Virus record (IMG/VR): IMGVR_UViG_3300031976_001012
Coordinates: 1-37,376 of that record
Length of the DNA: 37,376 nucleotides
Reading direction: 5' to 3' (one strand)
Source of the DNA: a virus
This document shows positions 1,131-37,368 of the stretch, piece by piece. Each line of letters begins with the position of its first letter. Positions within the stretch are counted from its first letter, which is position 1. A program made the translations under genes and the position numbers. Below the pieces are notes generated by a model. It saw nothing but the letters and a program-made list of their open reading frames with translations, was not told the DNA's origin and searched no databases.

Positions 1131-1925
1131 ATGAAATTTGAAAGGTTAAATAAAAAGGATCTTGATAATTATTGTAAATCGTTAGGCATTAATATAAAAA
1201 AACAAAAAAAGGCCGATCTTATTGAAGCTGTATACTTACATGAAAGGATTATTATTGATAAAGCAATTAAATCAGGAAATGGCTTACCTCTCTTAAAGGA
1301 TAAAATAACAACTCTTGCTAACGAATATGCAGAAAATTTAAAATCCAAAATCACATCTAGAAAAGAGGAAATGAAAGGTGATGATAACTCACATTATTTA
1401 ATATATAGAGTCTTAGGCATTCCATTTGAAGATGGTCAGCTAATTGACGAATACCAAAATACAGGGCGCTTTCTATACAAATATGCTGGCTCTTTTTTAG
1501 AAGAAGCTGCAACTTTATGCATGTTTTTTTCTAACAGCAAAGGTAAGAAAACCTTAGTTAAAAACACTATTGGAAGCAAACCCGCTAATTTTGAGATCGA
1601 TTTCCTCAACGCCAATGAGGCTGTTGAGTTAAAGTGGCGAGATGCCACAACAGATGGGGATCATATAACAAAAGAGCACACTCGTGTTCAAGTGATAAAG
1701 TCACATGGTTTTAAGCCAATTCGAGTGATGTTTTACTACCCTCAGAGAGCACAAGCCATTAAAATACAAGAAACACTAAAAACCATATACGCTGGAGTTG
1801 ATGGCGAATACTACGCTGGTGATGAAGCATGGGATTACCTAAAGAAAGTTAGTGGGTATGACCTAAAAGCCATATTGACCGAAATTGCAAATAAACGAGA
1901 TGAAAAAATACTTAATGAAGAATAA
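1131..1925 (+). CDS. Type II restriction endonuclease, ApaLI-like
   Basis: A 264-residue protein that I read as a type II restriction enzyme resembling the ApaLI family (which cuts GTGCAC); that assignment is from memory of the family and is moderate. Visible support is a PD-(D/E)xK-type core with D157 and E166-L-K168, preceded by the helix FLEEAA near 122-127. The gene overlaps by 11 bp a DNA methyltransferase gene, the classic restriction-modification arrangement. The first 50 residues are Lys-rich. The start ATG has AAGGA seven bases upstream. The gene is much more AT-rich than the structural genes, consistent with recent acquisition as cargo. It would protect the lysogen against other phages. 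Confidence 0.7.
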   Translation: MKFERLNKKDLDNYCKSLGINIKKQKKADLIEAVYLHERIIIDKAIKSGNGLPLLKDKITTLANEYAENLKSKITSRKEEMKGDDNSHYLIYRVLGIPFEDGQLIDEYQNTGRFLYKYAGSFLEEAATLCMFFSNSKGKKTLVKNTIGSKPANFEIDFLNANEAVELKWRDATTDGDHITKEHTRVQVIKSHGFKPIRVMFYYPQRAQAIKIQETLKTIYAGVDGEYYAGDEAWDYLKKVSGYDLKAILTEIANKRDEKILNEE

Positions 1926-3105
1926 AATTATAAATGGTGACTGCTTAGATAAAATGAGGCTTATTGAAAATAATTCAATCGATCTAATTTATCTAGATCC
2001 ACCATTTTTTACAGAACGGACTCACACACTAAAAAATAGAGAGCGAACGAAAGAGTTTAGTTTTGACGACAGCTGGGGGAGTGATAAAGGTTACGCAGAA
2101 TTCCTAAAAGAAAGAATAGAAATAATGCGTAACCTATTAAAAGATACAGGATCTATTTTTGTGCACTGTGATAAAAGTGGTGAACATATTGTCAGAGCTA
2201 TTCTCGATCAGGTTTTTGGAAAAAATAATTTTCAGTCAGAAATTATATGGACATATAAAAGATGGTCAAATTCAAAAAAAGGTCTCTTACCAAGCCATCA
2301 AAATATTTATTTTTATTCAAAAAGTAAACATTTCAAATTCAACAAGATATTCACTTCCTATTCTTCTACAACAAATATTGATCAAATTCTACAGAGAAGA
2401 AAAAGAGACGAGCATAACAAATCAATTTACGAAAAAGATATTTCAGGAAATGTTATAAATGGCGATGTAAAAAAAGGTGTTCCTTTAAGTGATGTTTGGG
2501 ATATTCCATATTTAAACCCTAAAGCAAAAGAAAGAGTTGGTTACCCAACTCAAAAACCACTTCTTTTGCTAGAGCAAATAATAAACCTTGTTACCGATGA
2601 AGGTGATTTGGTTCTTGACCCTTTTTGTGGTAGTGGTACGACTTGTGTAGCCGCTAAGCTTCTGGGTAGAAACTACATTGGTATTGACAAATCCTTAGAT
2701 GCTGTAGATTTAAGCAAGGAACGAATAAAAAAACCAATAAAAACAGAATCAAACCTTCTTAGCAAAGGCCGGGACTCTTATCTAAATGCAGATAAGGATG
2801 CTATGGCTTTTTTAAAAGGAGTCGAGTTTAATCCAGTACAAAGAAATAAAGGGATCGATGCAATTTTAAAAGAACAGTTTGAAAATTCCCCTATTTTAGT
2901 TCGAATTCAAAAAAACAATGAACCCTTAGAACAAGCAATTTCTCTTCTAACTAAATCAATGAAATCAAAAAAATCAAAAAAATCTTTTTTGATTAAAACC
3001 TCTAATGAAGAGAACTTATTTGAGATTGAAACTGAAGCTGAAGCTGAAGGAATGGAAATCATTTTATCACCGGCCTTACAAATTGCTCAATTAATAAAAA
3101 AATAG
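1915..3105 (+). CDS. Modification DNA methyltransferase (N4-C/N6-A type)
   Basis: A methyltransferase partner of the preceding nuclease. With the ATG at 1915 it has 396 residues; catalytic motif IV (DPPF) lies at 28-31 and the SAM-binding motif I (DPFCGSGTT) near 235-243. The IV-then-I order fits the beta class, with the target recognition region between them. About 110 Lys-rich residues follow the catalytic domain. Alternative in-frame starts are TTG 1885 and ATG 1900, all inside the end of the nuclease gene, so translation is probably coupled. The ATG at 1915 puts KNKIINGDC at the N terminus, as is usual in this family. A strong terminator follows. It should methylate the same site that the nuclease cuts. 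Confidence 0.88.
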   Translation: MKNKIINGDCLDKMRLIENNSIDLIYLDPPFFTERTHTLKNRERTKEFSFDDSWGSDKGYAEFLKERIEIMRNLLKDTGSIFVHCDKSGEHIVRAILDQVFGKNNFQSEIIWTYKRWSNSKKGLLPSHQNIYFYSKSKHFKFNKIFTSYSSTTNIDQILQRRKRDEHNKSIYEKDISGNVINGDVKKGVPLSDVWDIPYLNPKAKERVGYPTQKPLLLLEQIINLVTDEGDLVLDPFCGSGTTCVAAKLLGRNYIGIDKSLDAVDLSKERIKKPIKTESNLLSKGRDSYLNADKDAMAFLKGVEFNPVQRNKGIDAILKEQFENSPILVRIQKNNEPLEQAISLLTKSMKSKKSKKSFLIKTSNEENLFEIETEAEAEGMEIILSPALQIAQLIKK

Positions 3106-3156: not shown

Positions 3157-3207
3157 ACATTTCCTTTCTTAACTCGAGCCAAGTTATTGCCTATATAATT
3201 TTCCCTA

Positions 3208-3248
3208 TTTGAAAACTATTTACTGACAAATAGCGGATTGTCTTGCTA
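3208..3248 (+). promoter_or_regulatory. Candidate promoter for the gene at 3280
   Basis: TTTGAAAAC at 3208-3216 is followed by TATTTACTGAC, where CTGACA (3223-3228) can serve as -35 and TAGTCT about 18 bp later as a weak -10. The layout matches the promoter at 5577-5627 (TTTGAAAACATTTATTGAC), suggesting shared control. This is inferred from similarity. Confidence 0.4.
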
Positions 3249-3279: not shown

Positions 3280-3516
3280 ATGCAGAGAAAAAGCCGATCT
3301 GACATTCGCTGTGAGATTGCTGACGAGGCGATTAAGGAAGGGAACTACGGCTGGCACCGCTCAGTGACGTTGGCCATCAAGCGGTATAAGGCGTGGGGAG
3401 ATCACTCTGCCAGCGAACTGGATAACTTGATTGATATTGTACGCCGTAAGATTAAAGATGAAGAAAAGCGGCAGTCAAAAGTAAAGCTAGAGCAATATCG
3501 CAATTTGAGAGGATGA
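3280..3516 (+). CDS. Small basic hypothetical protein
   Basis: A 78-residue, Lys/Arg-rich, predicted mostly helical protein with the segment GNYGWHRSVTLAIKRYKAWGD in its middle; no family recognised. The ATG follows a GAGGG ribosome site. It is a single-gene unit between the restriction-modification terminator and the convergent minus-strand module, behind its own candidate promoter. Its base composition resembles the phage core more than the neighbouring AT-rich cargo. Confidence 0.65.
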   Translation: MQRKSRSDIRCEIADEAIKEGNYGWHRSVTLAIKRYKAWGDHSASELDNLIDIVRRKIKDEEKRQSKVKLEQYRNLRG

Positions 3517-5156: not shown

Positions 5157-5516
5157 TCAAAATAATCGTGGGATTTGATGATCTGGTCCCGTATAAGCTT
5201 GTTTACAGGTACGGCATGACCAATAGTCATTGCCTTCTAATTGAAGCCTGATTGTTATCTTCGAACTATCACAACATTGCTGACAAAATGGCCCATCTTT
5301 AACATCACCTTTTATCATCCAATAAAACGGGGCTTCGTACGTTAGCTGACTCTTATCTTCTAAAGACTTCTCAAGCGTTTGGAGTCTTTCTTTCAAAGCC
5401 AAGTTATCGTCTCGTAAGTTGGCCATCATTTCTCTGAGGTCCAAAAGCTTCTCTATCGCTTCAACCTGCATACCCTGCTTGATCAGATCTGATATATCTT
5501 TAAACTCTGATGCCAT
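5157..5516 (-). CDS. Coiled-coil plus zinc-ribbon protein
   Basis: A 119-residue protein with an N-terminal helix, a coiled coil at about 25-57 (heptads around LREMMANLRDDNLALKERLQ), and a C-terminal zinc ribbon with C78-x2-C81 and C101-x2-C104. No catalytic residues are apparent, so it is likely an oligomeric nucleic-acid- or protein-binding adaptor. The ATG follows a GGGAGAAGGG ribosome site. It is first in the minus-strand module, divergent from the C4-type RNA operon, so the two units share an intergenic region of about 80 bp before the C4 promoter. Function unknown; an accessory or defence role is inferred from neighbours. Confidence 0.75.
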   Translation of the reverse strand: MASEFKDISDLIKQGMQVEAIEKLLDLREMMANLRDDNLALKERLQTLEKSLEDKSQLTYEAPFYWMIKGDVKDGPFCQQCCDSSKITIRLQLEGNDYWSCRTCKQAYTGPDHQIPRLF

Positions 5517-5576
5517 TCCCTTCTCCCCTCATAGCTAAGCTGACAATTACTTTACTATGTTTTATTTGCGGTTATT

Positions 5577-5627
5577 TGTCACCATTTGAAAACATTTATT
5601 GACTTCTTTTTCTGACCATCCTATCGT
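5577..5627 (+). promoter_or_regulatory. Promoter of the C4-type RNA operon, with upstream TGT-N12-ACA box
   Basis: TTGACT at 5599-5604 and TATCGT at 5622-5627 are separated by 17 bp, giving a plausible sigma-70 promoter with transcription from about 5634. Directly upstream is TGT-N12-ACA (5577-5594), the spacing of P2 Ogr-type activator sites, overlapping TTTGAAAACA. A similar box lies at 854-876. Activation or repression through it is inferred. Confidence 0.6.
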
Positions 5628-5659
5628 TTAAGAGTGTTGGCAAAATCCAACATGAGGTT

Positions 5660-5669
5660 TTAGCAGACC
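5660..5669 (+). promoter_or_regulatory. seqA-like target of the C4-type antisense RNA
   Basis: TTAGCAGACC is the exact reverse complement of GGTCTGCTAA at 5781-5790 inside the C4-type RNA. It lies in the leader about 25 nt upstream of an intrinsic terminator, as seqA does in phage P4. Pairing of the mature RNA here would favour early termination of the operon. Confidence 0.65.
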
Positions 5670-5694
5670 TGAACTACAAGGACGCACATCACCG

Positions 5695-5712
5695 CCGCGT
5701 CGCGGTTTTTTT
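5695..5712 (+). terminator. Leader terminator upstream of the C4-type RNA
   Basis: CCGCG-T-CGCGG (5695-5705; effectively CCGC with a 3-nt loop) is followed by seven T. It sits between the seqA-like site and the C4-type RNA, where an immunity-controlled terminator would be expected. Confidence 0.7.
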
Positions 5713-5733
5713 GTGCCATAATGCTTGCGTTAT

Positions 5734-5810
5734 GGTGGTTGTGCGTGGGGAGACTTCGGTCTGCCAGGTACCTTGTGACTGGTCTGCTAACCCTGCGTGC
5801 AGCCACCACC
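5734..5810 (+). ncRNA. C4/P4-CI-type antisense immunity RNA
   Basis: A roughly 77-nt structured element. GGTGGTTGTGCG (5734-5745) pairs, with G-U allowed, with the 3' part of GCGTGCAGCCACC (5795-5807) as a closing stem. Inside it AGAC-TTCG-GTCT (5751-5762) forms a UUCG tetraloop hairpin, and CCAG...CTGG (5764-5782) forms a third stem. The GGTCTGCTAA segment (5781-5790) is complementary to seqA (5660-5669) and, over seven bases, to seqC (5816-5822). In P4 CI RNA and P1/P7 c4 RNA such a processed RNA silences its own operon, causing premature termination or blocking expression of antirepressor genes. Here it would control the two small genes at 5865-6534. Size, fold and complementarity are seen; function is inferred from the family. 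Confidence 0.8.
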
Positions 5811-5815
5811 CATGT

Positions 5816-5822
5816 TTAGCAG
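5816..5822 (+). promoter_or_regulatory. seqC-like target of the C4-type antisense RNA
   Basis: TTAGCAG repeats the first seven bases of the seqA-like site, just downstream of the C4-type RNA and 43 bp before the first start codon. It could pair with CTGCTAA in the RNA, as seqC does in P4. Confidence 0.55.
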
Positions 5823-5864
5823 TGTGGGTTGTGGTTTAAAGTCTTAATCACAAGGATTCAAACT

Positions 5865-6260
5865 ATGAATAACGCTATTGTTCATTCACAGCACCACCAC
5901 GCCCTTTTGCCGTCTACCGCTTTACCTTCTCAAAGCTCTTTACCTACCCAGAGAATAGGCATTGGCCGTATCGTCGCGGTTTGCGTCGAAAGCGATGAGC
6001 CTTTGTTCGTTCAAACGCCTAATGGCGCCATCTTTTCTATCGGCGGTTTGTCCGATCGTCAGAAACAACAACTCCTTACCCTGTTACCCGATCTCATCCA
6101 TACCCGTGTCCGCTTTCAGTACCGCCAACAAAATGCCCTTGGCCAAGCAGTCGATGCCATATTTCAAACCTTGCTCATCGAGGGCGACACCCGCCACAGA
6201 GCCAGCCCAGTCGTGTTTAATAATGGATTTAACAACATGCAAGGAGTACAGCATGGGTAA
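5865..6260 (+). CDS. Hypothetical protein under C4-type RNA control
   Basis: A 131-residue protein of unknown family. The N terminus is low-complexity with HSQHHHALLPS; residues 30-70 contain a beta-rich patch (RIGIGRIVAVCVESDEPLFV), and the middle is helical. I chose the ATG at 5865 because AAGGA lies eight bases upstream; an in-frame TTG at 5829 would extend into the seqC/C4 leader. By analogy with P1 (c4-icd-ant) and P4, genes behind such RNAs are antirepressors or early functions kept off in the lysogen, but no antirepressor domain is visible. It overlaps the next gene by 8 bp. Confidence 0.7.
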   Translation: MNNAIVHSQHHHALLPSTALPSQSSLPTQRIGIGRIVAVCVESDEPLFVQTPNGAIFSIGGLSDRQKQQLLTLLPDLIHTRVRFQYRQQNALGQAVDAIFQTLLIEGDTRHRASPVVFNNGFNNMQGVQHG

Positions 6261-6534
6261 GCCAGACAAAGATTTAACACAAGACTTCCACATGGATCGC
6301 GTAAACTTGGACATCACCACATCTGACGAGATAAAGCGCCAAATACACCACATGTCGTTTGGGATCGATGCATTAGATGGGCTAGGAATGATGGCGGCTC
6401 ATGCCATTGAAGACGATATAGGCGTCACAGGAGAACAAATCGCTAGCTTGTTGAAGTGTGTGGAATACAGTTTATTGACGACGCAAAGGAAGATCATTGC
6501 GGCCATAGACGAAAACGATGGTAACACCCACTAA
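6253..6534 (+). CDS. Hypothetical protein, second gene of the C4-controlled operon
   Basis: A 93-residue, acidic, helical protein without recognised domains; the C-terminal two thirds (DALDGLGMMAAHAIEDDIG...) look like a small helical bundle. The ATG at 6253 is supported by AAGGAG seven bases upstream and overlaps the end of the previous gene, implying translational coupling. It ends 4 bp inside the convergent Ogr-like gene. It should be silenced in the lysogen with its partner. Function unknown. Confidence 0.7.
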   Translation: MGKPDKDLTQDFHMDRVNLDITTSDEIKRQIHHMSFGIDALDGLGMMAAHAIEDDIGVTGEQIASLLKCVEYSLLTTQRKIIAAIDENDGNTH

Positions 6535-6785
6535 CTAGCAAACATATCCCGCTGCAGAGCCTGCCTTTCTTCGATCGGCAGGCTTTTTATTAGGGCGCTG
6601 GCAATTTGTAGCGTGGTGTGACGAGGTGGGTTTAGATCATGGGAATGGCTAAGTTTGTAAACAAAGCTGGCACCACAGGCTTTGGTGTTGGTACATTGGC
6701 AATACAGGTCTTTCACCGTCTCGCACAATACGTTAGACGACGTGATCAAGGCTTTGCTGTGGCAATGTGGGCAAATGACTCGCAT
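6531..6785 (-). CDS. ogr: Ogr/Delta-like late transcription activator (zinc finger)
   Basis: An 84-residue protein matching the P2 Ogr / P4 Delta family of zinc-binding activators that contact RNA polymerase at phage late promoters. Cysteines C5-x2-C8-x22-C31-x5-C37 match the Ogr spacing except for one extra residue in the last interval (x4 in P2). The start MRVICPHCHSKA is typical. TGT-N12-ACA sequences at 854 and 5577 are possible targets. It is convergent with the C4-controlled operon and lies at the edge of the virion block, as in many P2-like phages. Confidence 0.88.
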   Translation of the reverse strand: MRVICPHCHSKALITSSNVLCETVKDLYCQCTNTKACGASFVYKLSHSHDLNPPRHTTLQIASALIKSLPIEERQALQRDMFAS

Positions 6786-6889
6786 GGCTAACTCCCCTAA
6801 GTTTTGGATATTTTAGCAAAAATTAGGGAATATATAAGCTATTCTTGAATTACTACTCTTGCGAAACACTTTTAGAAGGAATCGATTCA

Positions 6890-8230
6890 ATGTCCAAGAA
6901 AAAAAAACCAAAATACGATCCTTTAAAAGCCTTGTCACCCATAAGTTTTGACCCAAAAAATGAAGAAGAAGTAAGACAGCTATATAAAATGGCTTGCAAG
7001 GGGTCTGAAAAACACTGGGGTAATATTAAAAAAATAGGGATAACTGAACTCAGCAGCAGCCAAAGAAGTGAATTTATCCACTCAGCTAATAAAGGAATGA
7101 GAGATGCTCAAAGTGAAATAATCTCAATTCTAAAAAATAGAAACGTATCGTCATCGGAAGAGCAATTACTAAGAGGCATTATGGATTCGATTGCTTGGCA
7201 GCTACTAGGGAATGAACTATACGAAGCAAGACTATTACATAAGGGAGAAAATCAGCCTAGCCTCAAATACAGCAATTTCGACTCTGTAGTCCATACAGTA
7301 GAAGAGCTAATAAAAGTTAGCCCTGACTCTATTTCACTAATTTCTGATCTCACAACATTTATACAAGTTGGTGATATTTTAAGCATATGCCCAATCAATG
7401 GTAAGACCATTCATGAAGTCAAAGAAGGAAAAGTAAACGAAAAAATCCACAAAGCACTTGAGTTCTACTCTGAATCTAAGTGCGATAGATACCTACAACT
7501 CTTTACTCAGAACGAAAGCCCCAAAGTACAAAGGCAGCTTACTAGAGTTGTTAGGCAAATGGGTAGGATGTCATATTTCTCAAATGTTGTTAAGAACGGC
7601 GAAGGAGTTAATCCTGATACAGATATGAAAATTAGAGTAGCTGAGGCTCAAGCACCACTTAACTTATGGTTTACTGAATTAGTAGATGCTCTGGGTGAAT
7701 CGGAAAAAAATGGATGGGCTATGAAAAAAATAGAGAATTGCTTATTTTTAGGCTGTTACTCTGATGAATATCTCTTCAACTTTGGTCACATTGCCTTCAA
7801 TGAATGGTTTAAGGATAGTGGAGGTACTATTGATTGCCCAAGAGCTAGGCTTATTGATTCTATTATTACACCTCTTGCTCTGCCCATTTTTAACCTTGAT
7901 TTACCAGAAAAATTTATGTTTGATATTCTATTCGGCCGCAAACAAGTTTGTTTAGGGTTAAATATTGCAGCTCTCATGGATGAGTGTAAAAAAGTTGGCT
8001 TATCTGTCCGCTTCGCCTCAAAAAAAGAAAAAGGGAAGTCAGAGAATGATGGACAACCTCCATATACATACGAAGGAAAAGCTATAATAATTGGAAATGG
8101 AGAGGTTGAAATGATGCTATTCGATGGTATTTTCTTAAGAACCATATTTCATGGGCAAAAACCAGTTTCGCTCATTAAGCAATTCCTTGCAGACATAGCA
8201 ACTGCCAACAAAGAATCAACTAAAGCTTAA
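6890..8230 (+). CDS. Hypothetical cargo protein with nuclease-like motif beside the portal gene
   Basis: A 446-residue protein of unrecognised family, AT-richer than the flanking phage genes. Residues 155-185 read FIQVGDILSI...TIHEVKEGKVN, where D162 and E176-V-K178 have the spacing of a PD-(D/E)xK nuclease core, a common signature of defence nucleases. The remainder looks mostly alpha-helical. The start ATG at 6890 has AGAAGGA about nine bases upstream; an in-frame TTG at 6845 lacks this. It is a lone gene between ogr and the convergent portal gene, the slot where P2 carries tin and old, which block other phages. A defence role is inferred from position and the motif; nuclease activity is unproven. 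Confidence 0.72.
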   Translation: MSKKKKPKYDPLKALSPISFDPKNEEEVRQLYKMACKGSEKHWGNIKKIGITELSSSQRSEFIHSANKGMRDAQSEIISILKNRNVSSSEEQLLRGIMDSIAWQLLGNELYEARLLHKGENQPSLKYSNFDSVVHTVEELIKVSPDSISLISDLTTFIQVGDILSICPINGKTIHEVKEGKVNEKIHKALEFYSESKCDRYLQLFTQNESPKVQRQLTRVVRQMGRMSYFSNVVKNGEGVNPDTDMKIRVAEAQAPLNLWFTELVDALGESEKNGWAMKKIENCLFLGCYSDEYLFNFGHIAFNEWFKDSGGTIDCPRARLIDSIITPLALPIFNLDLPEKFMFDILFGRKQVCLGLNIAALMDECKKVGLSVRFASKKEKGKSENDGQPPYTYEGKAIIIGNGEVEMMLFDGIFLRTIFHGQKPVSLIKQFLADIATANKESTKA

Positions 8231-8251: not shown

Positions 8252-9262
8252 TCAAGTTTCATCCCGCCACATTGGTTCTTTGAAGCTGACCGCGCCAACA
8301 CCTATGTGCTGGTTTATCTCTAAAAATGGCTGCTGCAGTGCGCCTATTTCCAGTTCGTGATACACGCGCATTATCTTCTCTATGTCGCCAAAGCCGCCGT
8401 TGGTTTCTGGCATGATGCCAGATAGACCAGGCTGCATGCGGTGCATAGATAGGATCTCGTCGCGGGTGATGTTCTTTACCCGCTCGAATTCGTCTTTGGT
8501 GCCGATGTCGCCCACGGGGATGATTTGCACCGGATCTTTAGCAGCGGATTTACCAATGTTCAGATACAGCGATCGGAAATTCCCCGGGCCTTTTGAATCT
8601 TGAACTTTCTTCTGTATTTTTAGGGCGGTGTCTTCGTCTAAGTCCGCGTCGTTGGTCACTAGTATGTAGCCCATGTGAGCACCGTTTGAGTAGTATTTTC
8701 GACGAAATAAGCCTGCCTCTTCGCTTAGTAATACCGACTGAATCCCGCCTAAGTATTCCGGCACTCCATAAATGCTTTGCTTCAAATCGGGCTCAATGAT
8801 CTGAACCACTTCGCCTGGTTTAAATTCGGTTTTGCTACCGTCTTTATTCAGTTTGAAGAACACGTCTTTTTTACGGCCACGGCGCATGGTGAGCGCTGGC
8901 AACCATTCGGTACGAACGGTTTTGCCAAAGCCATTACGAAACACCTGAAAGTACATCATGCCAGTGACCACGTAATCCAACGCGAGGCGCTGCATGGTGT
9001 TGTAGGTCATGAGTGGCGACGGTTTAAACCATTTCATCACCATGTTCTTTTTAAAGTGCAGAATCGAATTGTGGTGCGGGTTGGCGTTCATCAAATCGGC
9101 CAAGCCAGACAGCGACACGGGTGGACGGTAGTATTCGCCCATTGTGTCCAGGTACACGCCAATGTATTCGGATATGTGATTATTTAGCACCGGCTCTGGC
9201 GCACCAAATTCAAACATGTGCGTGGCGCTTTGGGTGGTTTTTGTCTCTTCGGCTACTGTCAT
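8252..9262 (-). CDS. Q: Portal protein (P2 gpQ-like)
   Basis: A 336-residue phage portal of the PBSX/P2 Q type. It forms the ring at the capsid vertex through which DNA is packaged and to which the tail joins. Recognisable segments are NANPHHNSILHFKKN (about 60-72), YVVTGMMYFQVFRN, IYGVPEYLGG, and MRPGLSG-type residues near the C terminus (SMHRMQPGLSGI). Length fits P2 Q (344). It is transcribed with the terminase gene upstream (33 bp gap), opposite to the capsid genes, as in P2. Confidence 0.95.
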   Translation of the reverse strand: MTVAEETKTTQSATHMFEFGAPEPVLNNHISEYIGVYLDTMGEYYRPPVSLSGLADLMNANPHHNSILHFKKNMVMKWFKPSPLMTYNTMQRLALDYVVTGMMYFQVFRNGFGKTVRTEWLPALTMRRGRKKDVFFKLNKDGSKTEFKPGEVVQIIEPDLKQSIYGVPEYLGGIQSVLLSEEAGLFRRKYYSNGAHMGYILVTNDADLDEDTALKIQKKVQDSKGPGNFRSLYLNIGKSAAKDPVQIIPVGDIGTKDEFERVKNITRDEILSMHRMQPGLSGIMPETNGGFGDIEKIMRVYHELEIGALQQPFLEINQHIGVGAVSFKEPMWRDET

Positions 9263-9295: not shown

Positions 9296-11110
9296 TTAGT
9301 CACTAAAAGCCACGGTGGTTTTTCGTTTGGGGGCTATGGGTTCGTAGTTAAAAGCGTGCATGATGGCCCAGGCTACATCGGCGTGGCCGGTTGCATTGGA
9401 TCGGTTTGCCACGTACGTGATTTGTCCGTTGTCGGTGACTTTTTGAGTGATCATCATGAACGCTTGTGCGACTTCTTTATCGCCTGCACTGAATTTGAAT
9501 AAGCCGTTTTCGATGAGGTCGAGGGCTTTTAAGACGAGTTCGGTTTTGGTTTGTACGCTGTAGGTGATCGGCGTAACCCGTCGGTAAAATTGCTCAACGA
9601 GTTCAAATACACCGCGCCCAATGCCGGACACGTCTATGCCGATGTGCTTGACGTTGTGCTTTTCTTTTTCTTCTTTGATTCGCGCCGCTTGCCACTGAAA
9701 GTTCACACCGCGCCAAGAATCTTTTTTCAAAAGTCGCCACGGATCACTTGCACCCAATGGAATAGACAAAAGGGCGAGGCTGGCGTTGTCTGTGGTTCGC
9801 GACGGGTCGTAGCCAATGGCCACAGGTCTGTTACCAAATGGTTGGCCTGCGTCTTTGTGGTAATCGGTCCATGTTTCGGTATCGACCATGCATTTTAGTA
9901 GCGTTGCTAGGGTAAATACGCTGTTGGCGTCGTCTATCCATTTGCACAGGTACTTGTTATTGAATGCGTCTGTACTGTTTTCATCCCTCAGTTGCTCTAT
10001 GTCGAACAGGTCACAACCGCCCTCTTCTGCATCTTCTATGGTGACGATTTGCCGCCACATTTTGTCTGGCCCTATCCAGCCGCCTTTTAGGTTTTTATGG
10101 CTTATATCGAATGTAATACGTTTGGATTCTGCGAGCTTTTTGTTGTAGTTGTTGCCATTCCACATTTCATACGCAGGGTGTGAGGTGGCAGACGGCACAG
10201 AGAAGAGAGTACGACGCCATTTTTTGTGTGAAGACATACCAGACGCCATATCCCATAGCTTCACAAAGTCCGGCATCCAGAACACTTCATCACAATAAAG
10301 ATGACCGTGGTAAGAGTTGGCTGTGCGGCTGTTTGTGGATAAAAAGCGCAGTTCTGCACCGTTTGATAGGGTTATTACGCCTTGGCCTTTTAACTCGACG
10401 TCAAAGTGCTGCATGGCAAAGGCGATGATGTAGGCTTTGAATACTTCTGCCTGGTCCCGTGACGATGATAAGAAAAGCTGGTTGTCGCCGGTGCGTATTG
10501 CATCGTCTAGGGCTTCGAATGCAAAGTACCAGGTCGCGCCAATTTGCCGAGACTTTAGAATCATGCGGGTACGGCGTGTTAGCGGGTCTAACTTGCGTTG
10601 GTACCAGAACTCTTGATAAGGGAAAAATAGCTTGTTACGAACATCGTCTAGCATTTCTTCTGTGATGCTGGATATGTCGTTTTTTACTTTCTTTTTACGA
10701 CCGCGACCGCCGGACTTTTTCTCGCCTTGTGATTTTGATTCGCCGCTTGGGAACTCTGGCGATGCATAACCACCGCTGGCAATGGCTTTGGCCTCGGCTT
10801 GTTTCTTTTCCGCTTCCGCCGCTTTGATTTGATAATCCCCAAAGACAGCAATCAGTTTTGCTAGTTCGTCTATTTCTGCAGGGGTTTTATTGTCCTTTTC
10901 TACGAGTAAGTTTATTCGTCGTGCCAGGGCTTGTTCGACTGTGTCTGGTGGGGCGAATAAATCCCATGTGCCAGCATCCCGCCAATTGTAGAGCGTGCGT
11001 GTCTCTACCCCCGTGTCTCTGGATATCTCCTGAATAGCCCAGCCTTTTATATAAAGCTGTTTCGCGGCTTCTTTTACTTCTGGCGAATACGTCTTTGCCA
11101 CTTCTAGCAC
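9296..11110 (-). CDS. P: Terminase large (ATPase) subunit, P2 gpP-like
   Basis: A 604-residue packaging motor. An N-terminal helix-turn-helix lies at about 24-48. An atypical Walker A (KSRQIGAT, 186-193), Walker B (LYCDE, 271-275) and a C-terminal nuclease domain with acidic residues D435 (IGYDPS), D493 (IGIDVSG) and D578 (GHADVAWA) follow. Length matches P2 P (590). It cuts and pumps concatemeric DNA into procapsids through the portal. A basic linker near 130-145 (GGRGRKKK) joins the N-terminal part to the motor. It is divergent from the scaffold gene, as in P2. Confidence 0.96.
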   Translation of the reverse strand: MLEVAKTYSPEVKEAAKQLYIKGWAIQEISRDTGVETRTLYNWRDAGTWDLFAPPDTVEQALARRINLLVEKDNKTPAEIDELAKLIAVFGDYQIKAAEAEKKQAEAKAIASGGYASPEFPSGESKSQGEKKSGGRGRKKKVKNDISSITEEMLDDVRNKLFFPYQEFWYQRKLDPLTRRTRMILKSRQIGATWYFAFEALDDAIRTGDNQLFLSSSRDQAEVFKAYIIAFAMQHFDVELKGQGVITLSNGAELRFLSTNSRTANSYHGHLYCDEVFWMPDFVKLWDMASGMSSHKKWRRTLFSVPSATSHPAYEMWNGNNYNKKLAESKRITFDISHKNLKGGWIGPDKMWRQIVTIEDAEEGGCDLFDIEQLRDENSTDAFNNKYLCKWIDDANSVFTLATLLKCMVDTETWTDYHKDAGQPFGNRPVAIGYDPSRTTDNASLALLSIPLGASDPWRLLKKDSWRGVNFQWQAARIKEEKEKHNVKHIGIDVSGIGRGVFELVEQFYRRVTPITYSVQTKTELVLKALDLIENGLFKFSAGDKEVAQAFMMITQKVTDNGQITYVANRSNATGHADVAWAIMHAFNYEPIAPKRKTTVAFSD

Positions 11111-31053: not shown

Positions 31054-31503
31054 TTATTGATCATTCAAAAATTGCTTGAACTGAGAAATATTGAACTTCA
31101 TTTGAGTCTCTAACCATGCAGCTTCATCTTCATTCGCGTTTGCCATAAATTCCTGAACGAGACCAACGATTCGATTAAAACGTGGGTCATCATTTTTATA
31201 ATCAGAGCGCGGTTCAGAAATTTCGAGGTGTGAAATAGGCGTATCGACAAACATTCTTCCTTTTCCGCTCACCAACCAATCAATAGAAACTCCATATTTA
31301 GCGTTTAATTCACGTAATAATTTCGCGCCTAGCGGTTTTCCTTCATAAATACTGTTCGTCACAGTACGTACAGTTACGCCCGTATCTCTTTGTATTTGTT
31401 CAGGATTTATATTTTTCTCAGCTAAGAACAATTGAAAGCGATATATTTCACCTTCTTTTTTCTTGCCTATCCATTTTTTAGGTGTTAGATTTTCATTTGT
31501 CAT
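31054..31503 (-). CDS. Prophage repressor, Xre/CI-type HTH
   Basis: A 149-residue DNA-binding protein, presumably the immunity repressor. An HTH of the phage repressor type covers about 25-85 (IQRDTGVTVRTVTNSIYEGKP; LNAKYGVSIDWLVSGKGRMF). There is no LexA/CI-type S24 peptidase, so it would not be cleaved in the SOS response; P2-like repressors behave the same way. The C-terminal part (100-149) is acidic and helical, likely for dimerisation. It is divergent from the small RHH gene with only 42 bp between, which must contain both promoters and the operators. Confidence 0.82.
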   Translation of the reverse strand: MTNENLTPKKWIGKKKEGEIYRFQLFLAEKNINPEQIQRDTGVTVRTVTNSIYEGKPLGAKLLRELNAKYGVSIDWLVSGKGRMFVDTPISHLEISEPRSDYKNDDPRFNRIVGLVQEFMANANEDEAAWLETQMKFNISQFKQFLNDQ

Positions 31504-31545
31504 CAGTAAGCCCCATTTGAAAACACAGTATAGCAGGAAAGTATC

Positions 31546-32219: not shown

Positions 32220-34931
32220 ATGGAATACGACTTAACACCACAAATCGTAAATCGCCTACAGCACGAATTTAGAATGACCGAACAGGGCGACTATTTGCGT
32301 GGTTACTGCCCTGACTGCGGTAAAAAATCGTTATGGACCTGGTTAAACAATCCTGGCAACGTCCAATGCGATCGCATCAATAAATGCGCCTACTCAGAAC
32401 CCACGCATGAACTTTTCCCAGACTTATTTGAAAAGCTCAACGAAAAACACCCACCGACCGAGCAAGACCCAAACGCCACGGCGAAGGCTTATCTTTCGCT
32501 TATTCGCGGCTTTGAGCTTTCACAACTGAGCGGCCTATTCGAGCAAGGTAAATACTGGCACCCACATGGCAACAAAGGTACAGCCACCGTTCGTTTCTAC
32601 TTAGACGAAGCGAAAACCATGATGTGGGAACGCCTAATAGATGACGTAATCATCACTAACGAAGACGGCAGCAAAGAAAGCCGCAACAAGAATTTTAAAG
32701 GCACCTTCAAAGGCTACTGGTGGCAACCGCCCACACTTAAAATCGAAGTATGCGACGAAGTATGGCTCGTTGAAGGCATCTTTGACGCTATCGCCCTTAA
32801 TCAAAACGGCATTAAAGCCGTTGCGATCATGTCGTCTGGCACATGGCCAAGCGAATCAATAAAGCCGCACTTAAACAAAGACGTCACATGGGTTATTGCC
32901 ACAGATAATGACTACGCAGGACGCAAGGCACTAGAAAAACACAGTCAGACATTACGCGATTTAGACGAGAACGTCGCAGCGGCATTGTCGAGCGACAACG
33001 ACCCAAAAGCCGACTGGAACGACCTACACAAAGCGGGAAAATTAACCGAACAGCACCTAAACAAATACCGTTACCTTGGCAACCTAGCCCTAGCCCAAAG
33101 CGCCAACGAAAAAGCTCAAATCATGTGGGAACGCAACCCAGAGCGTGGCTACTTCATCTTCACATTTAAGAACCGCACCTATGCGGCATCCATCAACAAA
33201 GAAGAACACGGCAAAGTCGCATTAGCTTATTGGGCCGCTCGTGAAGGTTTAGATCCAATGGATTTAAACCAAAAAGCCGTAGAAGAGTTACGAGAAAAAT
33301 CCACAGACAACATCCGAAAGGAGTGCGATAAAACAGCCTTCAGCCAGTCTGTAAAAATGCGTGAAATCGCCACTTTTGGTATGGACTACCTCTACTTCCA
33401 GCAACCAGATAACGGCGAAGACGGGCAGTACTTTTTTCGCTTTATGCTGGCCAACCACGGTCAAGAACGTCAAATAGCCTTCACACATAAAACCATCAGC
33501 GCGGCGAGCGACTTCAAAAAATCTGCCATGCGTATTCCTGGCGCATTATTCACCGGCACCGCTGCAGACCTTGATTGGCTTTATAGAGAATGGACTCGTT
33601 ACAACATCAAAGAAGTACGTACATTGGACTTTGTTGGCTATGACAAAGCAAGCCGAGCCTACGTGTTCAACAACTACGCTGTGGAAGGCAGCAAAATCCG
33701 AAAACTCAACAGCCAGTCATTTTTCGAACTCAAAAAGCAAGGTATCAAGACCACGGTCGACATCAAACAAACCCTATCGCAAAAAGAAAACACCGATTGG
33801 GTACCAGACTTTAAAACCGCATTCGGCACCAAAGGCTTAGTTGCCTTATCTTGGTGGTTTGGTTGCTTATTTGTCGAACAAGTACGAGAAGAGTACAGCT
33901 CATACCCATTCTTTGAATTAGTCGGTGAAGCGGCCTCTGGTAAATCCAGTTTGGTCGACTTCATGTGGAAGCTTTATGGAAAAGATGGCGAATCGTTCAA
34001 CCCTAACTCGTCTACCCTCGCTGGCCGCACACGTAAAATGGCAGAAGTCAGCAACTTGCCCGTCGTATTTAACGAGACAGATAACGAAAACGACGATAAA
34101 AACAGCCATGTAAAGCGCTTTAACTGGGATGAACAGAAAGACCTTTTCGAGGGTGAATTTGGTCGTGTCACGGGCATTAAGTCACAAGACAACAGCACAA
34201 AGAAACCAGCGTTTAAAGCTGGATTGATGATAGTACAGAACATTCCAGTTCAAGCATCCGAAGCCATATTAACCCGTATTACCCACCTTAACTTCGACAC
34301 CAGCCACCACAGCCCACAAGGCTACGAAGCCGCTGGTCGACTGAACAGAATGCCCATATCAGAGGTAAACGGCTTCATATTGAACGCAGTGCAATACGCT
34401 GACCAAATCATGAAGGCGTTTAAAGAAAGCTTTGCTCGTCATCAAAAACGACTAACAAGCAATCCAGACATAAAGCTAAACCGCATCGTAGACAACCACG
34501 CCAAAGTCATGGCGTTTACCGATTGCTTGGCCGTGCTTTATCCCGCTATTACAGAACATGACGTGGCAAGCGTTCACAACATGCTAGAAACCATGGCCAC
34601 ACAGAGACAACAAGCCCTAAACGAAGACAGCCAAGTCGTACAGCAATTCTGGGCGCAGTTTGACTACCTTGATACCAAGCCTGGCTCAGGTGGTTATGCC
34701 GTCAACATAGAACACCAAATGAACCATTCTAAAAATCCAGACCAGCAGATCGCAGTCAATCTGGAACACTTTCATAGCCAGTGCAAAGTACACAACTTGC
34801 CCTTTATGGAACCAAAAGAACTTCGCAGACAGCTCACCACCAGTAAAAAACGTCAATACATAGAAAACAGCACGGTGCGGTCACGCATAGAAGAACGAAC
34901 CGTTCGATGCTGGATTTTTAACCGCAAATAA
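32220..34931 (+). CDS. Phage primase-helicase (zinc finger, Toprim, P-loop ATPase)
   Basis: A 903-residue multidomain replication protein. Zinc-binding cysteines lie at 30, 33, 50 and 56 (YCPDCGKK...NKC). A Toprim domain follows, with E185 (VWLVEGIFDA) and D229-x-D231 (ATDNDYAG). An ATPase/helicase domain has Walker A GEAASGKSS at 569-577 and a Walker B-like LPVVFNETDNE near 615-625. The layout recalls P4 alpha and related primase-helicases that start replication at a phage origin. P2 itself uses gpA, a rolling-circle nickase, so replication mode differs from P2. It is translated with the LuxR-like gene. Confidence 0.9.
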   Translation: MEYDLTPQIVNRLQHEFRMTEQGDYLRGYCPDCGKKSLWTWLNNPGNVQCDRINKCAYSEPTHELFPDLFEKLNEKHPPTEQDPNATAKAYLSLIRGFELSQLSGLFEQGKYWHPHGNKGTATVRFYLDEAKTMMWERLIDDVIITNEDGSKESRNKNFKGTFKGYWWQPPTLKIEVCDEVWLVEGIFDAIALNQNGIKAVAIMSSGTWPSESIKPHLNKDVTWVIATDNDYAGRKALEKHSQTLRDLDENVAAALSSDNDPKADWNDLHKAGKLTEQHLNKYRYLGNLALAQSANEKAQIMWERNPERGYFIFTFKNRTYAASINKEEHGKVALAYWAAREGLDPMDLNQKAVEELREKSTDNIRKECDKTAFSQSVKMREIATFGMDYLYFQQPDNGEDGQYFFRFMLANHGQERQIAFTHKTISAASDFKKSAMRIPGALFTGTAADLDWLYREWTRYNIKEVRTLDFVGYDKASRAYVFNNYAVEGSKIRKLNSQSFFELKKQGIKTTVDIKQTLSQKENTDWVPDFKTAFGTKGLVALSWWFGCLFVEQVREEYSSYPFFELVGEAASGKSSLVDFMWKLYGKDGESFNPNSSTLAGRTRKMAEVSNLPVVFNETDNENDDKNSHVKRFNWDEQKDLFEGEFGRVTGIKSQDNSTKKPAFKAGLMIVQNIPVQASEAILTRITHLNFDTSHHSPQGYEAAGRLNRMPISEVNGFILNAVQYADQIMKAFKESFARHQKRLTSNPDIKLNRIVDNHAKVMAFTDCLAVLYPAITEHDVASVHNMLETMATQRQQALNEDSQVVQQFWAQFDYLDTKPGSGGYAVNIEHQMNHSKNPDQQIAVNLEHFHSQCKVHNLPFMEPKELRRQLTTSKKRQYIENSTVRSRIEERTVRCWIFNRK

Positions 34932-35192: not shown

Positions 35193-35495
35193 ATGGATAT
35201 TCTAGACATTCAACTCGTAGCAGAAAAAGCCCTCGGCCTAACACCGTCTCAGGTCGACGAACTCATTGAGAATGGTGAAGACTACGACACGCCGCTACAA
35301 GAACGCTTTGGCGTTGACCTGCAAACATTTGGCAAGATTGCCAATGCACTTATCCCCATGACGCCCATTATCCAGGAGCCAAACACAGACAAACTGATCC
35401 ACGCATTTGTAGAGTTTCATGGAGGCCGCGGACACATAATCGCTGGCCACGCTTTCAATAGCGAGCCAAGCTTTGATGAAAACACCCCGTTCTAA
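35193..35495 (+). CDS. Small hypothetical protein, paralogue of the gene at 311
   Basis: A 100-residue acidic protein, about 64 percent identical by eye to the 90-residue protein just inside attL, with ten extra C-terminal residues (SFDENTPF). The common upstream motif GCTAG(C/T)CTTTAG supports duplication including regulatory DNA. The gene lacks a strong ribosome site. It lies between replication and integration genes and its stop overlaps the next ATG. Function unknown. Confidence 0.75.
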   Translation: MDILDIQLVAEKALGLTPSQVDELIENGEDYDTPLQERFGVDLQTFGKIANALIPMTPIIQEPNTDKLIHAFVEFHGGRGHIIAGHAFNSEPSFDENTPF

Positions 35496-35940: not shown

Positions 35941-37056
35941 ATGCCTAAGAAAAACAACAAATGGCCAAAATACGTCCGTGAAGTAAACGGGCGTATTGTT
36001 TGGCGACCAAGGATTACTGCAGAAGACAGAACGGTTGTCGACGTAGACAGCCACGGCTTTTTAAAGCCCCCTGTTCGATTAGGGTCAACAAAGGATTCAG
36101 AAGCCAGAATACTAGCGGCTTATCTTTCAGCGAAAGCGAGCCTCACAGCACGCACAGGCGCCGATAAGCACACATTAAAATGGATCGTAAGCCAATACCT
36201 AAACTCCAGCCAATTTAGAGCTCTCGCGTCGACAACGCACCATAGAACCAAATCTCTTGTGAAAGTGTTAGAGCACCCTATTGCCGCGAATGGAAAAGAC
36301 ATCACATTCGGTGACTTGCCTATTCTCAGCATCACAAAACCCATGGTTAGACGGTTAGCAGACAAACGCTTGGCAAACATGATAGACGACGGACTAAAAG
36401 GCACATCAACCATCAACCAAGAAATGTCATTACTTCACTCCGCTACCAGATGGGCCATAGAACACATCGACAACCTTGGTATTACAGACAGCCCTTTTAA
36501 AGTGAAGAAATTCAAAGTCGACGAAAACGAACGCTACGTCACCGACGAAGAATATGACATTCAATATAAAATCGCCGCTGAACTGTCAGAGTACCTACCC
36601 TTCTTTTTTGAACTCACATACCTAATCGCCTCAAGAGGCGTAGAGACATTAGACCTAAGAACATCACACATAGACCCTGATCCTATTAACGGCGGCATTT
36701 ATGTGGCTAGACGTAAAGGAAGTAAAAACAACTTCATAGAATGGTCAGACAGACTGTACAAGGCTTATCAAGCCGCTGTCTCAATGCTAGAAAAACACAA
36801 AGCCAACGGAAGAGACGTACCCTTGATCATCAGCTCAACCGGACACAAGCTCAGCATGTCTGGTTTACGAACCGCCATGCACCGCTTAAAAGAAACCATG
36901 GCAGAGCGAAAGCTAACCAATATTTTTTGGAGTTTGCACCTTCTTAAATCAAAAGGCGTGTCTGACGCAGAAAGCGACCACATCGCAGGCCACAAAACAG
37001 AAAGAATGAGAAACAAATACAAGACGAAAATAGAAAGGCATAAAGCGGCAAGATAG
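35941..37056 (+). CDS. int: Tyrosine-type phage integrase
   Basis: A 371-residue site-specific recombinase that would integrate the phage into tRNA-Phe. The C-terminal catalytic domain has R232 (IASRGVETLDL), K259 (RRKGSK), H333-L-L-K336, H351 (AGHKTERM) and the nucleophile Y360 (NKYKTK). The usual second arginine of H-x-x-R is lysine here, a variant I recall in a subfamily with HDLKAKG. The N-terminal 80 residues resemble arm-binding domains. It ends 60 bp from attR, as expected. Confidence 0.93.
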   Translation: MPKKNNKWPKYVREVNGRIVWRPRITAEDRTVVDVDSHGFLKPPVRLGSTKDSEARILAAYLSAKASLTARTGADKHTLKWIVSQYLNSSQFRALASTTHHRTKSLVKVLEHPIAANGKDITFGDLPILSITKPMVRRLADKRLANMIDDGLKGTSTINQEMSLLHSATRWAIEHIDNLGITDSPFKVKKFKVDENERYVTDEEYDIQYKIAAELSEYLPFFFELTYLIASRGVETLDLRTSHIDPDPINGGIYVARRKGSKNNFIEWSDRLYKAYQAAVSMLEKHKANGRDVPLIISSTGHKLSMSGLRTAMHRLKETMAERKLTNIFWSLHLLKSKGVSDAESDHIAGHKTERMRNKYKTKIERHKAAR

Positions 37057-37116: not shown

Positions 37117-37164
37117 AATGGTGCCCAGAGACGGAATCGAACCGCCGACACGAAGATTTTCAAT
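37117..37164. repeat. attR: attR: tRNA-Phe part shared with attL
   Basis: Positions 37117-37153 are identical to 44-80, then one mismatch (A37154 versus G81) and ten more identical bases. This copy lies inside an intact tRNA, so integration rebuilt the gene. The mismatch in the anticodon stem indicates the exchange lay on the T-arm side of it. Confidence 0.88.
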
Positions 37165-37280: not shown

Positions 37281-37292
37281 TTCTTTTAATCA

Positions 37293-37368
37293 TGGTGCCC
37301 AGAGACGGAATCGAACCGCCGACACGAGGATTTTCAATCCTCTGCTCTACCGACTGAGCTATCTGGGC
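37293..37368 (-). tRNA. tRNA-Phe (GAA), second copy
   Basis: Seventy-six nucleotides, same as the first copy except for one base-pair change in the anticodon stem (GAGGA...TCCTC instead of GAAGA...TCTTC). Anticodon GAA, encoded CCA. Being intact and outside attR, it is a host gene. Its 3' half equals the attL fragment exactly, so it could be an alternative target. Confidence 0.96.

Follow-up and report, generated by a model that had tools for sequence, protein, structure and literature searches.

A putative P1/P4-type isrK-C4 antisense RNA switch ahead of two small genes in a P2-like prophage

Introduction

In the phages P1 and P4 a C4-type antisense RNA keeps a small operon silent in the lysogen. 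Here we ask whether a short operon in a viral DNA stretch of 37,376 nucleotides (IMG/VR record IMGVR_UViG_3300031976_001012, analysed over its full length and called the window below) is controlled in this way, and which proteins it encodes. The initial annotation, made from the letters of the DNA, had proposed a C4/P4-type antisense RNA switch in front of two unannotated genes. The Rfam match and the natural compensatory changes described below support this proposal, and we consider it highly probable that a P1/P4-type isrK-C4 switch represses the roughly 1-kb operon through termination and by blocking the ribosome site. This would place a complete isrK-C4 switch in a P2-like phage group, at a distance from the genes for the repressor and for replication, and it names two unannotated guarded proteins as testable candidates for roles in phage development or directed at the host.

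The prophage and the position of the operon

The source stretch is an integrated P2-like prophage. The portal gene (8252-9262) and the terminase gene (9296-11110) are on the minus strand, the terminase having relatives with 44-46% identity among named P2-like phages, and the scaffold and later virion genes follow on the plus strand. The integrase gene is found at 35941-37056. Repeats of tRNA-Phe sequence lie at both prophage ends, one of 47 bp (45-91 and 37292-37338) and one of 37 bp (44-80 and 37117-37153), and are probable attachment sites; two tRNA-Phe genes are located on the right side of the prophage.

The C4 operon is a self-contained unit of about 1 kb on the plus strand, between the left accessory genes and an ogr-type activator gene. 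It spans from a promoter-like site at 5599 to a terminator hairpin, GCCTGCC..GGCAGGC followed by TTTTT, at 6559-6588 on the plus strand. The Ogr/Delta zinc finger gene (6531-6785, minus strand; Pfam: PF04606), of a late-gene activator family, faces the operon convergently, is its neighbour and lies outside the switch. The operon terminator is within the 3' end of this opposing gene, the overlap covering window positions 6531-6588, and ogr could suffer interference from expression of the C4 operon. No DNA similarity to known phages was found for positions 5500-6800.

Window positions 1131-3105 encode an ApaLI-like restriction endonuclease (Pfam: PF09499, E 1.4e-86) and a DNA methylase, and since relatives hold different genes there, this is a variable cargo site. 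The interval between ogr and the portal gene encodes a 446-aa protein without clear family (6890-8227), and this slot, too, is occupied by other genes in relatives. Two small similar genes of 90 and 100 aa are found at opposite prophage ends (311-583 and 35193-35495), the former matching PHROG 10957.

The leader and the C4 RNA

The operon begins with a promoter-like sequence, TTGACT-17-TATCGT (5599-5627, plus strand), which is a consensus match only. It is followed on the same strand by an isrK/seqA-like leader RNA (5634-5712), which ends at an intrinsic terminator with a GC hairpin and seven T (5691-5712). Within the leader we found the a1 (seqA) site TTAGCAGACC (5660-5669), an exact complement of 5781-5790, and the b1 site ACAAGG (5676-5681), complementary to the b' loop of the C4 RNA; the terminator separates a1b1 from C4. 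With permissive thresholds, the isrK model (Rfam: RF01394) matched 5634-5712 with 45.8 bits (cut-off 50, E 2.5e-8) and the Rfam model of the C4 target, c4-a1b1 (RF03163), matched 5621-5674 with 31.9 bits (cut-off 46.7, E 7.6e-6), so that both matches are significant, yet under the curated cut-offs. Among known phages RF01394 scores P4 and Gifsy-1 above and P1 below its cut-off, and at the loose E-value applied it also gives weak matches in several control genomes. Promoter and terminator scans of the region were near background, and a simple search for a conserved stem enclosing the terminator recovered one in only 26 of 71 loci.

The C4 family model (Rfam: RF01695) matched positions 5728-5813 on the plus strand with 65.2 bits (cut-off 45, E 1.2e-10), which is comparable to the scores of the same model for P1 (68.8), Gifsy-1 (69.0) and P4 (74.9 bits). 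There were no matches in 14 control genomes. The family was also absent from five named P2-like phages, and therefore P2-type immunity does not in general include the C4 module. The mature C4 RNA is predicted to cover 5734-5810 and to start with GGTGG like that of P1. This segment has 77 nt, the length of the C4 annotated in P1, and the same TTATG/GTGG context.

Two parts of the C4 RNA, b' CCTTGTGA (5771-5778) and a' (seqB) GGTCTGCTAA (5781-5790), face target sites on both sides. The a' segment pairs perfectly over 10 nt with a1 upstream and over 7 nt with the a2 (seqC) site TTTAGCAG (5815-5822) downstream. The b' segment pairs over 6 nt with b1 and over 8 nt with b2, TCACAAGG (5848-5855), a perfect complement located in the Shine-Dalgarno region of gene 1, whose start codon (5865) is 9 nt beyond b2; all of these sites are on the plus strand. 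Because b2 is the ribosome-binding region, the b' half is important. The order a1-b1-C4-a2-b2 is the a1b1-c4-a2b2 layout of P1.

The elements that the initial annotation had named (promoter, seqA, hairpin with seven T, seqB and seqC) are all present, at most one or two bases from where it had placed them. Its foldable RNA of about 77 nt (5734-5810) falls within the RF01695 match, which is also the outcome of the covariance search it had recommended. Its pairings of seqB with seqA and seqC hold, and it had overlooked both the pairing of the b' loop with b1 and b2 and the isrK-like RNA recognised here by RF01394.

Chance level and conservation of the pairings

By itself, the 10-nt complement of a' and a1 is only modestly unusual, being equalled in 35 of 5000 dinucleotide shuffles; the 8-nt downstream complement was equalled in 260 of 5000. 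Given these rates and the near-background scans, parts picked by eye are suggestive only. At the level of sequence, it is the Rfam match together with the comparative pairing that lifts the switch above chance.

For the comparison, C4 loci were drawn from collections of viral and bacterial sequences with a C4-internal pattern and with RF01695, and the flanks were never used for the selection. The test statistic was the longest perfect complement between loop and flank, taken for each locus' own pair and for loops redealt among the 67 distinct C4 loci. The b' loop reached 7.45 nt with its own downstream flank and 5.09 nt after swapping (z 20.5), and 6.40 against 4.70 nt with the upstream flank (z 15.0). 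For a' the values were 6.99 against 5.11 nt upstream (z 14.7) and 6.94 against 4.91 nt downstream (z 14.8). These z-scores are not probabilities, because many of the 67 loci are related and not phylogenetically independent. Of the 54 loci whose downstream b' match has at least 6 nt, 53 have a start codon no more than 13 nt after it.

The closest comparison comes from five related cassettes in four phages: the window, G002, G060 and two cassettes of G001 (G001b and G001c). Together they have four a' and five b' specificities. The a' and b' targets are TTAGCAG and TCACAAGG in the window, TTGGAAG and TCAAAGAGA in G002, TAGAAAG and TCAAGAGAAT in G060, TTAGCAG and TCAAAACGA in G001b, and TTCGAACG and TACAAGT in G001c, the a' being common to the window and G001b. 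In all five cassettes both loops match their own downstream targets over 7-10 nt; foreign loops match mostly over 4-6 nt, with some exceptions of 7 nt. In G002, b' pairs with b1 over 4 nt only.

G001 (IMGVR_UViG_640753033_000001; L220, L279, L235) carries three isrK-C4 cassettes with differing loops, each with a gene 2 homologue. Its cassette a is the orthologue of the window cassette and has an identical C4; in the third, the C4 was identified by eye and by an isrK match, RF01695 reporting none. Relative to the window, the C4 region is unchanged in G001, and in G002 and G060 its differences are compensated. As read from the aligned sequences, these natural compensatory changes show selection on both loops and both target sites.

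The guarded genes

Two genes lie downstream of C4 on the plus strand, gene 1 (5865-6260, 131 aa) and gene 2 (6253-6534, 93 aa), overlapping by 8 nt. The initial annotation had suggested that their products may be antirepressors or lytic effectors. Searches of Pfam, PHROGs, NCBIfam and PADLOC gave no convincing match for either gene, and matched neither a toxin nor an antirepressor family. A weak match of gene 1 to an OB-fold family (Pfam: PF14743) was below the cut-off, and its structure model is of low confidence (mean pLDDT 56.9). The gene 2 model consists of two long helices forming a predicted hairpin (mean pLDDT 78.8). As a helical hairpin it had weak matches to many structures, and Foldseek found nothing below E 0.001 in the viral and PDB libraries. 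We also considered gene 2 as a relative of DUF6124/DUF3077 and rejected this, as a profile-profile comparison with DUF6124 was negative and there was no Pfam match.

Homologues of gene 1 were found in G001, G002 and G060 only. Gene 2 has homologues in the same three phages, including all three G001 cassettes, and is therefore the recurrent client of the cassette. With tblastn neither gene had a match in phages, and gene 2 had none in plasmids.

In cassette c of G001, the only sister cassette of this kind, a gene for a KilA-N protein (Pfam: PF04383, E 3.9e-23) comes directly after the gene 2 homologue, which corresponds to the order icd, ant in P1; the window's own cassette has no KilA-N gene. 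Gene 2 gave no alignment with P1 Icd, and the similarity of gene 1 to Icd is at chance level only. The position is thus P1-like, the proteins not recognisably so. Gene 2 probably encodes a small effector in the place of icd, or else a protein that regulates the development of the phage, and not the antirepressor itself, although we hold this weakly.

Comparison with known C4 systems

The statements on P1 and P4 made here are taken from later papers and from GenBank annotation. The C4 RNA of P1 prevents the expression of ant, and the Icd protein is an inhibitor of cell division (PMC8198154; PMC8546580). The GenBank annotation of P1 gives the order a1, b1, C4 (77 nt), a2, b2 and icd, and the order and spacings in the window agree with it. 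The window thus shares with the c4-icd-ant (immI) region of P1/P7 a 77-nt C4, a1b1 upstream, a2b2 at the ribosome site of the first gene, and two overlapping genes downstream. It differs in that the products of these genes show no recognisable relationship to Icd or Ant, and in that it is part of a P2-like integrated prophage, a different phage type, without a known C1-type operator.

The P4 CI RNA region has the same order of an isrK-like seqA, a terminator, a C4-family RNA and seqC. The terminator and both sites are present in the window, and by analogy transcription may terminate prematurely here as well. P4 guards its own replication operon, whereas the window operon holds two small genes beside ogr, far from the replication-type gene at 32220. 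In Gifsy-1 isrK-STnc1160-orf45-anrP, a terminated isrK-like RNA is likewise followed by a C4-family RNA (PMC4825925); in the window operon no anrP antirepressor was recognised.

Outside phages, the Group 1 C4-like sRNAs of Acinetobacter baumannii belong to the C4 family and have variable loops as in the window; they are chromosomal and processed out of longer transcripts (PMC5320573). A. baumannii has many C4-like copies per bacterial genome, in contrast to the single phage copy of the window and the three cassettes of G001. C4 RNAs were predicted in Vibrionales and other Proteobacteria in 2010 (PMC2864571; summarised in PMC5320573), and therefore the window RNA belongs to a known kind. STnc6030 of BTP1 was set aside as a candidate isrK-like immunity RNA, since it is antisense to a tailspike gene.

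Proposed mechanism and alternatives

The comparison of sequences demonstrates the match to the covariance model and a complementarity in two parts that is kept up by compensatory change. We infer the steps of processing, termination and occlusion from P1, P4 and Gifsy-1 (PMC5320573; PMC4825925). The leader would be transcribed from the predicted promoter at 5599, and most transcripts would end at the 5712 terminator, giving an isrK-like RNA of about 79 nt. Read-through transcripts may be cut, by RNase P as in P1, to release the 77-nt C4 RNA. Acting in trans, its a' and b' loops would pair with a1b1 of new leaders and favour termination, as in P4. Pairing with a2b2 of escaped mRNA, for which the covariation speaks, would cover the ribosome site of gene 1 as in P1, and gene 2 would be silenced too through the 8-nt overlap. 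The operon would be off in the lysogen and would come on upon entry of phage DNA into a cell that lacks C4, upon depletion of C4, or possibly when C4 is titrated by isrK-like RNA bearing a1b1. Titration of C4 by isrK has been proposed for Gifsy-1, yet co-expression gave no simple support (PMC4825925).

What the switch serves can be read in more than one way. C4 might be an RNA antitoxin to a growth-inhibiting gene 2 or gene 1, in a toxin-like or addiction cassette that serves maintenance or defence and not immunity proper; we regard this as possible, if doubtful. The cassette is self-contained from promoter to terminator and lies amid variable cargo genes, G001 has three of them with different pairing specificities, Pseudomonas genomes have many C4 RNAs ahead of small genes of unassigned function, and P1 Icd, likewise encoded behind C4, inhibits cell division (PMC8198154). 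However, neither gene matches a toxin family, and the third G001 cassette runs into a KilA-N gene, as P1 immunity does.

This KilA-N gene, of antirepressor type, bears also on P1-type immunity proper, in which gene 1 and/or gene 2 would be an antirepressor that inactivates the protein repressor and C4 would prevent this in lysogens. The layout is that of P1 c4-icd-ant, and the element CATTTGAAAACA, described below, is common to the promoter and the repressor intergenic region, which can be compared with the P1 C1 operator Oc4 at the c4 promoter. This reading is nevertheless unlikely, as the KilA-N gene is missing from the window cassette, neither guarded gene matches an antirepressor family, and neither resembles P1 Icd beyond chance.

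A switch that acts by termination only, the pairing near the start of gene 1 being incidental, would fit the terminator between a1b1 and C4 and the P4 CI RNA, which works via termination (PMC4825925). We consider it quite improbable, because the b' loop covaries more strongly with the downstream than with the upstream site and its match lies at the ribosome site. A decayed, functionless remnant is extremely unlikely, since every pairing element is intact, G001 has an identical C4 region, and the changes in that of G002 and G060 are compensated.

The repressor candidate and a shared element

Besides the proposed isrK-C4 switch, the prophage has a candidate protein repressor gene (31054-31503, minus strand, 149 aa), HTH-like by eye and without family match. 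Since a separate HTH-type candidate exists, an RNA-based second immunity layer, as suggested by the initial annotation, is plausible.

The 12-mer CATTTGAAAACA occurs exactly twice in the window, directly upstream of the -35 of the C4 promoter (5583-5594, plus strand) and in the repressor intergenic region upstream of the repressor candidate (31514-31525). It can be read as an operator, by comparison with P1 Oc4, or as a promoter element. The form RTTTGAAAACA is found twice in the window, five times in G001 and twice in G002, each time on the same strand as the C4 operon; the reversed control pattern gave no hits. In G001 it falls, among other places, in cassettes b and c and near the repressor. 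G060 lacks it, its cassette having ATGAAAACA in that position, and the repressor region of G002 lacks its exact form. The shared motif is a lead only, because it was chosen after being seen. The element ATTTGAAAAC, a candidate operator, is shared by three sites, 5583-5594 ahead of the C4 operon, 31514-31525 ahead of the repressor candidate and 3206-3217 ahead of a small gene at 3280.

C4 RNAs in Pseudomonas genomes

Up to three locks of differing specificities are found in one prophage. The isrK-C4 module may be a portable RNA lock to which different small proteins have been coupled on many occasions, in phages as well as on bacterial chromosomes, and C4 would then control small proteins of an unrecognised class in general, beyond its part in phage immunity; we put this tentatively, at somewhat below even chances. 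As far as our searches show, the two guarded proteins, the relative with three cassettes and the abundance of C4 before DUF6124 genes are new. The multiplication of C4 before DUF6124 genes of Pseudomonas suggests a wider role of C4 RNA. In the collection of papers that we searched, none names DUF6124.

Most of the Pseudomonas genomes searched (L107, L199; G037, G056, G045, G049 and others) have 11-41 C4 loci above the cut-off, with 41 in P. baetica. These loci are mostly located about 100-240 bp upstream of DUF6124 genes. A C4 RNA on the same strand within 600 bp upstream was found for 29 of the 33 DUF6124 matches in P. baetica and for seven of eight in another genome.
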